Source of the DNA: Amphirosellinia nigrospora
Lineage: Eukaryota > Ascomycota > Sordariomycetes > Xylariales > Xylariaceae
Direction of reading: 5' to 3'
DNA length: 64,000 nt
Assembly (NCBI GenBank): GCA_004123355.1
Contig: SCHM01000002.1
Location: 3,038,001 to 3,102,000, forward strand
Shown here piece after piece: positions 6,571 to 60,568 of this stretch. How positions within the stretch are numbered: position 1 is the stretch's first letter; each line of letters begins with the position of its first letter. Under the pieces are notes generated by a model, which saw only the letters and a program-made list of their open reading frames with translations, was not told the DNA's origin and did no database searches. Position numbers and translations under genes: made by a program.

Positions 6571-8712
<2,142 letters not shown>

Positions 8713-39487: not shown

Positions 39488-42487
39488 TTAACTGTTATGG
39501 CGAGTGTGTTCTTCCTCCGGGGCGAAACGAGACCTTTCGTTGTACGCTCTCTCATCTGCAGTGGCGCCATGAACATTTACTAAGTACTCCTTGAACTGGG
39601 ATGTCATGTCAAGCACCTGCTCGAAGTCTCTCTGGTCCAAAACCCCCTCGTCTTCCGCTTTGTCTGTCTTTTGCTGAAAGCGATACTCTGCGAGGGCCAC
39701 GGCCGTTTGAAATGCTACATTCGATCACACAAGTTAGCTGATACCTTTACTACGCTCTAAGTCCAAGCAATCACGTTTTGCTTGTGGTGATTAGATTGCT
39801 CTTACCGTTCCGGATTTCTCGTCCATTCCAGCCCAGCTCTGCTATATTCTCGTCCTCTAACACGTATCGTTTCGCACGAGAGGTCACTGTCACATCTTGT
39901 CGGTCTTCGCTTAGCTTGTTGAAGAATTGCTTCCAAATTTTGGCTCTATCGTTGCCTCGCAAGTTTTCGTAGGCAATGACCACGTGGATTCTCGACATGA
40001 ACGCATCGTCAAAAGTCCCAACGCGATTCGTTGTTAGGAATAAAATTCCCCTGTAGTATTCCGTACATCGCAGAAAGACTGTGAGCCCATTCACGGTTAG
40101 GCGCGCAATTGAAGTCTCGTTGCTTCTTATTAGGGGAGACATAGACTTACCGGATACTAAGCTGTTTCGCTTCAGATCTGCAAACTCACGTCTTTCGAGG
40201 TAGACGTCAGCTTCATCTATAAGCATGACAGCTCCCATGTCTCTGCCAATTTGAACCATTTAGCAAGGTTCTCCTCAACCTTTGTTTCGTCGGTCCCGAT
40301 ATCTCCGCCTGTTAAGGACAGGAGAGCTCTGCCTGTATACTCTGCGATGCACTCTAAGTAGGATTAGCAGAGCGCTCTCTTATATTAGAGAGGTAAAACT
40401 TGCCAGCTGTCTACAAAAATGGTGTTAGCATATATATTGAATCGTAGGAAGCGGACATGTTGTTCTTACAAATGTCTTTCCTACCCCGGGGCCACCATGT
40501 AGCAAGAAGATCTGTCCTTCACCCTTGTTCTCCATATGGTCGGCCAACCAAGGTCGCGGACCTTGATGTTTCATGCTGTCTTTTGTGAACCTCTGAACTA
40601 GAGCCTTTATCATGGTTTTCCTCTCCTCGGGCATGACTAAATTCTCGATTGCTCGAGTGTTGGCCTTTGGGGTACTGCAGTTTGCTACATCGAGACTCGC
40701 TGTCATAGATTAGCTAAGAAATCGAGCCAATAATAGTTTTGCTGCGAATGCTCACCCCACGTTCTTGTTTTTAACATGAGCCCCCAAAAGCGGCTATTAC
40801 AAAGCAGGTACCTGTGTCTCGGATGCTCTTCGAGCCCATTGGTCTCAAGATTTCGGTTCTTAAACGGATCGAGGACGTCGTAGGTGGCCCAGCGAAACCC
40901 TCGCGGCGGGTGGGATCGCTGCCCGCTGCATTCTTCGCAGTAGCACTTAGGCAGTCCTGCGCCCATATCCTCGATTTCCCCGATCATTGGGACGGAAGAG
41001 GGGTTTTCAGAGTAGTAAGAGAAACTATCAACATACGCGCGACCATAATACTATGCCGCATTAGCTAATCCAGAGGTGATAGGCAAAGGTCAACTTACAC
41101 TCTGGTTCCTGGAACCAGCCAGCCTACCAGAATAGTAGACCTGCCTCCCGACTATGCTTTCGTACCACTGCTTCCCATTCTGCTCAAGTCTCTGGCGTGT
41201 CTGCCCTTTGTCTTGCTTGTCTAGATACTTACAAGGGAAAACCTTCAAACTAGTTATGGCTCGCTCTCCCTCGAACTGTGGAATTATTGCTGTTTCAGTG
41301 CATCGCCCAACGAACCGGCCATCAAAATCTAGGCTCCACATAGTGATTGTGTAGGGGCTTTTTCTCGTCGATTCGGACAGAATACCCTCATCCACATCGA
41401 CATGACTGACAACATAAGCGGCCAAGCTGTTTTTGGTTTCACAGTACACTGTGTCGCCAGGCTTGAAAAGGTACCACAGCATACGGAAAGTACATGTCAT
41501 CTGTTCATATCGGGCAAGCTCGTCGCTGATATCGTCTTTGTATACCGAATCCTTGACATAGCTCAGAAGCGAGTTGAGGTAAGCCGACGTATCTTCGGAA
41601 TTATTGATAGGAGTGTCCGACTCAGATTTAGTCCTGTTGCCGTATCTTTCGAGCTGCTCCATGTGGTGGGCAATCAAGGGGTAAGGCTCATTGATGGTGA
41701 CCGTCTCTCCTTCCAAGTCCACGAATGGATAATAGGTTACCACCTTAGCGATAGCCTCGATGATCTCTGGCGATTTAATCACCATTTTCCCACTCCATAC
41801 TGTGATCCCAACTGCGGGGTTTTTGAGAAGTTCTTCACCGCTTACGGTTTCCCAAGATCTCGTTTGAGAGTATGTCGTCCTTAATATCGTAACTACCTCA
41901 AAGATTGGCTCCCTTTCTTTGCGTATCCCAATCACGCCCCTTGCCGCCTGCAGGTCGAATGGCTTCACCCACGGCTCAGAAGTAACTGTGCTGCCAATTC
42001 TATCCATGTATTCGACAGTGAAGGAAATTTTAGGCGAGTCATCATTTTCGTTCAGATCCCCCTTTCTTTCGTCAGTGTGTTGCTCGTGATCTCTTGATTC
42101 GCTATCGCTTCCTTCAGCGTTGCTTGCTTCGGTGACATTCGTTGCGCTGATATAATTAGGTTGTGTCAAGTCTTCGGCACACCGTGGACACTCTTCGTAA
42201 CCAAAATCAACGAGAACTGAATGAGGCCGGCCGTTTTTAGGACAGTAAAGACGAGCTTCACTTTGCCAATTTGAATCATTCTTGGGCTCATTTACCTCTG
42301 CTTCGTTCTTCGAGTCTTGATGATGCGGTTTGGATAAAGTTTCACTCTCGGTCAGCTCCCTTTCGGTATCCTCCATGACCACGACAGTGATGGTTTGCTG
42401 GTCATCCTCCGGATTCACATCTGGCTTAGGTGTGACCACATCGTTGTTTAGTACAGAAATCTCTGCTACCAATTCAGTAGCAGACAT
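39488..42487 (-). CDS. AAA ATPase with DUF7025-like N-terminal domain
   Basis: Seven exons: 42487-41099, 41050-40756, 40699-40470, 40410-40404, 40353-40151, 40078-39806 and 39714-39488. They give 874 residues once a single missing base at 40233-40235 is allowed for. An acidic N-terminus with two Cys pairs (CPKNG, ECPRCAEDL) precedes a DUF7025-type region (PFVDLEGETVTINEPYPLI and YKDDISDELARYEQM). A CYCEEC motif follows, then the AAA module: GGPGVGKTF, LLSLTGGDIG, AVMLIDEADVYLERR, ILFLTTNRVGTFDDAF. The C-terminus holds the sensor-2 lid. Such proteins are numerous in filamentous fungi; their clients are not known. The 7-base exon 4 lies just after the Walker A codons, between a GT-AG intron and a GC-AG intron. 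Confidence 0.85.
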
Positions 42488-58516: not shown

Positions 58517-60568
58517 ATGACGTCCCTCGTTACCGAGTTGCTGGTCAACCCGGTTCTTCGTCAAGCTCGCCGCTTTTCTCTGTCACGTCCGTCCCTCCGT
58601 CCCTCACATCTGATCCGGTAGGACCGGGCTCTCCCCGACGAATATCGCAATCCTGCCCACATCCGCAGCAGGATGATTTGATATCCGAGATCGAGGAGGA
58701 GTATTCAATGCGCACCGATCCCGAAGATAGTGCATCCTCGCGACGTTCCTCCCGGAGTTCGGCCACGACCAACCCGCATATGGACGCTAGTCGAGCTGAT
58801 GAAGAGCATAGCCGGTCAGACGGTACCGAGATCCCTACCAACCCTGAACCCTCGGCCGTCGATGCCCGTGTATCCGGCTCACGGAGCGACTCGTTCTCCA
58901 CCGACCCTCCCAGTATGAGTACACACGAACCGCCACCCTCGCCCTCTATGCAGAGCTACTCGCCGCTGCCGGAAGATGATGGGATGGGTTCGTTGCGGAA
59001 GCGTATAATTGCCATCCAGGCCCAAAAGATTGGCCACTCGGAGAAGGCCCATCAGATGCATCGATTGCTGTCAGAGGGATACACAAAGTCCCAGACCCGC
59101 GTTCAACCTGAACAGCCACTCTCCCCCTCGAGTCCTAGGATCACCGAGAAACGTGCATCACAGATTCAGGGACCGTTAGAGTCATTCAAGTTCTGGCAGA
59201 GTGCGTTAAGCGAAGCTGAGAACGCCGAAGAGTTCGCATTGACGGACAAAGACCTCGAGCCTACGTTTGTGCCCAAGAAACAGCCGGCAGAGTCTACCTC
59301 GGACACAGCAGACGTCGAGACCAACAACGAGAAGCTTCTCGGATGCGAACATTACAGGCGCAATGTCAAACTGCAATGCTCAACGTGCGACCGATGGTAT
59401 ACTTGCCGATTCTGCCATGACAGTGTGGAGGATCATATTCTTATTAGAAAGGAGACGCGGAACATGCTGTGTATGTTCTGCGGGACGGCCCAGAGAGCTA
59501 ATCAAACATGCGCGTCTTGTGAGGCACCGGCGGCAAGGTATTACTGTGACATATGCAAGCTCTGGAATGATGACCCAAACAAACCTTGTTATCATTGTAG
59601 CGATTGCGGCATTTGCAGGATTGGTCATGGTATTGGGAAAGATTTCTATCATTGCAAGGTGAGCAATCCGTCCGCCTTGACACGAAACTCACCCACTGAT
59701 GCATGGCTAGAAATGTTCTGCATGCATTGCTATATCGACTCAATCGGACCATAAATGTATCGAGCGTGCCATAGACTGCGACTGCCCTATATGTGGTGAT
59801 TATATGTTCACATCACCAAAACGGGTATGCTTTATGAAGTGTGGGCACAGCATACACCGAGATTGCCTCGACGAACACCAAAAGACCTCGTACAAGTGCC
59901 CCATATGCAACAAGAGCCTACTCAACATGGAGTCACAGTTCCGCAACCTAGACCTCTCTATCCAAGCACAGCCAATGCCACCGGAGTTTAAGGACACACG
60001 TGCGATCGTCCTATGCCACGATTGCTCGGCGAAGAGTTCGACCATGTACCACTGGCTTGGCTTGAAATGCGGCGTTTGTGAGTCCTACAACACTGCTCAA
60101 CTTCAAATCATAGGTTTGGATGCCGAAGCGATCGAAAATGACTTGGTAGGACGTAGTACACAGGTTTCAGGCCTAGCTACTCTTCGGAATCCCGATGCTA
60201 TTGTAATGGATGGTACTACACGCGCAATGCGTCGCCGGCATTCGTCCACAGTCACTGGGTCGGTTTTCGTTGGTGCAGATCTTAGTTCATTCCCTACCGA
60301 TAGGCTGGCGCGCTCAGTATCGCCAGTTCCCACACCAGCGCGTTCGTTGCGCACATCAATGGTTGGGGGCTACTTCGACTTGGAAGAGGAGGAAGAAGGC
60401 GACGGGGATATATTTGGCTTCTGGAGGCGCTTCCCCCGTAGCTTGGCCAGCAACGGCGAGGACGACGCTGCCGAGTCTAGCGACGGCATGACTTCAGACG
60501 AAGAAATGGGAGATGACGAGGGTGAAGAATCAGAAGACGATGCTTTTGAGTTGCTGGGTCATAGATAG
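58517..60568 (+). CDS. CHY/CTCHY/RING zinc-finger protein (RCHY1 type)
   Basis: The N-terminal region is Ser/Pro-rich. From about 59340 the CHY zinc finger appears (CEHYRRNVKLQC, CRFCHDSV, MLCMFCGTAQRANQTC), then CTCHY (YYCDICKLWNDD, HCSDCGICRIG). After an intron at 59659-59710 the RING follows (DCPICGDYMFTSP, CGHSIHRDCLDEH, YKCPICNKSL) with a rubredoxin-like part (LKCGVCESYN). The tail is acidic (DLEEEEEGDGDIFGFWRRFP). The family includes RCHY1/PIRH2 ubiquitin ligases. Exon 2 is uninterrupted. I place the start at 58517 (MTSLVTELLVNPVLRQARRF), which requires a one-base break before 58620; a start at 58708 is the in-frame alternative. Confidence 0.82.

Follow-up and report, generated by a model that had tools for sequence, protein, structure and literature searches.

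How a conserved ATP-binding site is completed across a 116-base gap is the question raised by a minus-strand gene in the 64,000-nucleotide stretch of Amphirosellinia nigrospora DNA that we analysed (hereafter, the window). The exon carrying its Walker A motif stops at position 40470 with GGA AAG ACA TTT (GKTF), and the next conserved exon begins at 40353, where the sequence from the third base onward, TGC ATC GCA, reads C-I-A. The first-pass annotation had proposed that these parts can be joined only through a seven-base exon lying next to a GC-AG intron, and that such an arrangement could make splicing of the ATP-binding site inefficient or regulated. Judging from sequence comparison, the seven bases ACAGCTG are very likely a genuine exon, which would probably be contained in all productive mRNA.

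Profile matches place the gene (42487-39488, minus strand) among the fungal-type AAA ATPases, with an upstream DUF7025 domain, an AAA core and an AAA_lid_13 lid. Exon 1 (41099-42487) is open from a presumed start codon and contains DUF7025 (PF22942, E = 1.4e-27, above cut-off, at 41090-42484). It is followed by intron 1 (41051-41098; GT-AG, 48 bases), exon 2 (40756-41050, open frame), intron 2 (40700-40755; GT-AG, 56 bases, with a GCTAAT branch-like motif) and exon 3 (40470-40699), at whose end lies the Walker A sequence GGPGVGKTF. Both introns and the start of exon 3 were read by eye, intron 1 lying beyond the spliced alignment, and the ends of exon 2 were set by eye against the paralogue L029. 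Downstream of the Walker A junction, exon 5 (40151-40353) holds the Walker B motif, and spliced alignment delimits intron 5 (40079-40150; phase 1, GT-AG, 72 bases), exon 6 (39806-40078), which covers the sensor region and the start of the lid domain, intron 6 (39715-39805; phase 1, GT-AG, 91 bases) and exon 7 (39488-39714), open up to the stop codon. The lid profile PF23232 was matched above cut-off by both exon 6 (E = 7.4e-16) and exon 7 (E = 2.8e-13). Domain order and motifs agree with those of the fungal AAA ATPases described by PF22942 and PF23232 in Pfam, whereas the exon layout at Walker A varies among members of this family. Elsewhere in the window, a second AAA ATPase lies at 6879-7937, with a strong PF00004 match and AAA_lid_3 just under cut-off; no Rfam family matched the window at gathering thresholds.

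Within the gap, an intron of 59 bases, an exon of seven and an intron of 50 are present base for base as the first-pass annotation had described them, together with their splice-site types and branch motifs. Intron 3 (40411-40469) is a phase 0 GT-AG intron, the microexon (40404-40410) encodes T, A and the first base of E, and intron 4 (40354-40403) is a phase 1 GC-AG intron. The donors read GTAAGA and GCAAGT and the acceptors TTGTAG and ACTTAG, while branch-like motifs, GCTAAC and GCTAAT, start 19 and 15 bases from the ends of introns 3 and 4, respectively. The same sites were picked, without being given in advance, by a spliced protein-to-DNA alignment that allowed introns of both the GT-AG and the GC-AG type from 40 bases upward, penalised GC, and used as query the L029 protein, whose gene is intronless across the aligned part. 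In dinucleotide shuffles of the 116-base gap, the pattern AG/ACNGCNG/G[TC] with both introns of at least 40 bases arose in 5 of 50,000 cases, and its GT-only variant in 1 of 50,000. The spliced 64-residue peptide with the microexon included matched PF00004 at 32.3 bits (cut-off 21.2), and exon 3 alone did not match this profile. Microexons are internal exons of up to about 15 bases between two spliceosomal introns, and the sites, the phases and the conservation in a paralogue place ACAGCTG in this class. The 301-base stretch around the site matched itself alone in the genome (48 Mb, 11 contigs).

The main reason to believe in this predicted exon is its presence in a sister gene, L037 (C5:7737000-7741000), the nearest family member, with 92 of 131 core residues identical. 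L037 carries a phase 0 intron after GKTY (53 bases) and a phase 1 intron in the E codon (59 bases), which enclose a seven-base exon, ACTGCTG (L037:2127-2133), placed at the same codons as the microexon of the window gene; the donor downstream of it is GTGCGT. Across the 119-base gap of L037, AG/ACNGCNG/G[TC] was found in 26 of 50,000 dinucleotide shuffles. Comparison of the two genes over three segments (52, 115 and 41 codons) gave 0.87-0.90 synonymous differences per site, past the range of the Jukes-Cantor correction, against 0.19-0.30 non-synonymous differences per site. Saturated synonymous sites combined with low non-synonymous change suggest that the seven-base exon has outlived a long separation under purifying selection.

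We identified at least 25 family members by DUF7025 matches in the genome, namely the window gene and 24 others, one of which (L026) is above cut-off only together with its neighbours. The 18 places that the AAA peptide matched in a search of the genome all fall within these 25. In the 12 members for which no intron was modelled at this place, the protein reads TAE in 11 and TVQ in one, which favours the microexon model. The phase 1 intron that splits the E codon (TA/E) is found in 10 of the 25 members, which are scattered over the tree, and probably goes back a long way; the upstream phase 0 intron is found in two, the window gene and L037. Three of the members that lack the TA/E intron (L028, L031 and L035) carry one intron within a few codons of that site: it follows TAEA or falls inside GxxGxGK, a layout that looks as if the intron position had shifted. 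The simplest account is probably that a second intron landed seven bases upstream of the older TA/E intron: in the ancestor of the window gene and L037, insertion of the phase 0 intron would have cut off the microexon. The protein tree (132 columns, with the row of the window gene garbled for a few residues next to its frame break) splits these two genes from the rest with an ultrafast bootstrap of 77. This value is taken from the tree string before rooting; in the list printed after re-rooting, the support values are tied to other groups. This support is moderate, and an older gain of the upstream intron with loss in the branch of L029 and L035 is possible. With the L029 protein as query, 27 pattern-matched stretches in a prokaryotic contig collection and 5 in a viral one yielded no confirmed relative, although collections of prokaryotes and viruses say little on fungal relatives.

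A first alternative is that the gene is a pseudogene and the microexon a relic. The frame of exon 5 changes between about 40262 and 40235, that is, between the Walker A and Walker B parts, and this is the one break elsewhere in the coding sequence that the first-pass annotation had anticipated. As a control, we searched the genome with the profile of the chaperonin family PF00118, whose members are expected to be essential. On C6, two loci (4018175 and 181474) each cover almost the full profile within a single frame; at several other loci, adjoining segments of the profile fall on overlapping DNA but in frames that differ. At all six junctions inspected, from five loci and chosen because they looked broken, the frame switches with no room for an intron; the encoded proteins are chaperonin-like by their profile positions. 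Chaperonin genes with intronless frame breaks (L069-L074) lie on C1, C4 and C6. Among the 25 ATPase family members, spliced alignment placed frame breaks in 9, some of these calls, where the alignment is weak, being possibly false. Small insertions and deletions thus appear to be frequent errors in this assembly, and since its chaperonin genes are broken in a like manner, the exon 5 break is probably such an error too. The sequence before and after the break shows little non-synonymous change and the remaining exons are open, so that we regard decay of the gene as unlikely. Small insertion or deletion errors cannot create a 59-base intron or the exon shared with L037. Other frame breaks in the window should be read with assembly errors in mind. 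Over the 44 bases 59711-59754, a frame encoding a CHY zinc finger overlaps the next one, which encodes a RING and a zinc ribbon; a single gene, interrupted by a frame break or an intron, may underlie the pair.

The GC donor of intron 4 is not common to the family, as the other nine TA/E introns carry GT; its context is otherwise intact (GCAAGT), and the position of the intron itself is common to the ten members. Since L037 lacks it, the GC is either a later change confined to the window gene or a wrong base, which is possible in a single assembly with many small errors. If real, it would have arisen after the microexon, by a change of GT to GC that left the rest of the donor consensus untouched. 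Among the core introns modelled across the family, 2 of 47 have a GC donor, and GC-AG introns are reported to make up 1.009% of annotated fungal introns (PMC7072748). According to a Fusarium intron study, Augustus does not recognise GC-AG introns (PMC5677156), and such a site is therefore easily mis-annotated.

As to the likely mechanism, where fungal introns are short, splice sites are probably recognised across each intron. Each of the two short introns (50 and 59 bases) would accordingly be recognised as a unit by the donor, branch motif and acceptor that it carries, and the two would be removed one after the other, although the acceptor of the first and the donor of the next are seven bases apart; the microexon itself would need no recognition. 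A second alternative holds that inclusion or skipping of the microexon is a regulated switch for ATPase production, turning it on or off. Skipping the microexon through the normal sites, or retaining either intron, leads to a stop, and regulation is conceivable because full splicing alone yields the family protein, the skipped or retained forms ending early. A glucose-dependent 20-base microexon, reported in Trichoderma Xlr2 (PMC11121469), offers a precedent. However, any exon that does not comprise a whole number of codons would be expected to give stops when mis-spliced, and the sister gene has the same exon with a GT donor, so that the GC variant is no conserved control element. The suggestion of inefficient or regulated splicing therefore found no support: the introns are short, their sites are good, and L037 keeps the exon. 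We consider a switch of this kind distinctly improbable, and infer that the microexon is included constitutively.

Two further family members have modelled tiny exons at the same junction. In L049 (C11:3000-7000), a four-base exon, AATG (1882-1885), directly follows the TA/E intron; in L043 (C4:11398700-11402700), a divergent member that also has a GC-AG intron further on, a six-base exon, TGATTG (1976-1981), directly precedes it. Branch-like motifs occur in both introns flanking each of them. The pattern AG/ARTG/GT arose in 120 of 50,000 shuffles for L049, a stronger result than the weak control of L043 (642 of 10,000, on a stretch that began one base late). We keep both exons as models only; they would have been made by second introns other than that of the window gene and L037. 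Exons of six bases in L041 and eight bases in L045, also proposed by spliced alignment, were judged spurious given their poorly aligned ends. One could imagine that a second intron was added at least three times at the Walker A junction (seven-base exon in the window gene and L037, six in L043, four in L049) and that the tiny exons act as an on/off control of the ATPase; two of the three lengths (7, 6 and 4) shift the frame when skipped. The idea of an intron-gain hotspot at Walker A was dropped, as the placement tests, made with modelled introns of at most 140 bases over query residues 44-172, were not significant. Of the 19 distinct intron positions, seven, the TA/E site among them, are no more than 24 bases from that site, and 10,414 of 100,000 random placements reached a seven-position cluster around some position. 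Four genes have two introns at most seven bases apart, against 1.7 expected, the count of four being reached in 1,395 of 20,000 placements; taken as three events, the close pairs were equalled in 4,519 of 20,000. Recurrent gain combined with on/off control strikes us as distinctly improbable.

Returning to the seven-base exon of the window gene, it is the join that best fits the family, yet the claim that it is the only one was too strong, since other joins keep the frame. Eighteen single-intron joins do so in the range searched, the most plausible being an intron from 40469 to 40352 that skips the seven bases, uses an AG two bases further on and yields an ATPase without TAE after GKTF. It is in frame and GT-AG, and is the simplest model for an automatic predictor; but it would span 118 bases, as compared to 48 to 91 for the other introns of the gene, it removes residues that all 12 members lacking an intron at this place retain, and L037 would need the same coincidence, all of which makes it very unlikely. 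With the outer sites fixed and GT-AG or GC-AG introns of at least 40 bases, two in-frame two-intron solutions exist, one being ACAGCTG (T-A-E). The other, CTGGCAA (40406-40400, L-A-K), has an acceptor AG four bases past the first and a GT donor that would make the GC donor unneeded, but we give it almost no credence, as this donor (GTTTTA) differs from the customary GTAAGT, none of the 12 members contains LAK and the L037 exon is in the TAE register. All these other joins are rejected on what the members without an intron here read. A stwintron, in which one intron is nested within another, was also rejected, as it would drop the TAE codons.

The window microexon is another case of the tiny exons already known inside conserved motifs of fungal genes. 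A one-base exon of Fusarium CYP621A P450 genes (PMC12940212) resembles it in being tiny, located in a conserved motif, frame-keeping, spotted via an intronless relative and kept across related genes; it differs in its length of one base rather than seven, in being supported by RNA reads and in its AG and GT sites, with no GC donor in the parts consulted. The same paper gives an eight-base exon in the I-helix motif of the P450 CYP5141A1 of Phanerochaete chrysosporium (PMC12940212), a fungus whose P450 genes are reported to contain widespread microexons (PMC1184071). This exon shares the size class, conserved-motif location and small introns of the window microexon, but its gene is of a different family and its host a white rot fungus. 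The 20-base Xlr2 exon of Trichoderma virens is likewise found in a filamentous fungus, has a length that is not a multiple of three and forms part of a functional domain; it is reported to be glucose-regulated (PMC11121469), whereas we found no sign of regulation at the window gene. The four-base microexon of MPC1 is also very short, not a multiple of three and constitutive, as shown for MPC1 and presumed here; it has long introns, exon definition and distant branch points (PMC9929638), whereas the short introns of the window gene make intron definition more likely. In our literature search, no paper named DUF7025, none treated intron gain, microexon and adjacent intron together, and none brought together microexon, non-canonical, filamentous fungi and intron.

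Taken together, this analysis suggests that a seven-base exon can persist through saturating synonymous divergence, and a relative keeps it without the GC donor. Around a single motif, the paralogues display a naturally occurring range of intron layouts, which is useful for the study of microexon origin. Automatic gene models of the DUF7025/AAA_lid_13 family may, in turn, err in the ATP-binding site.
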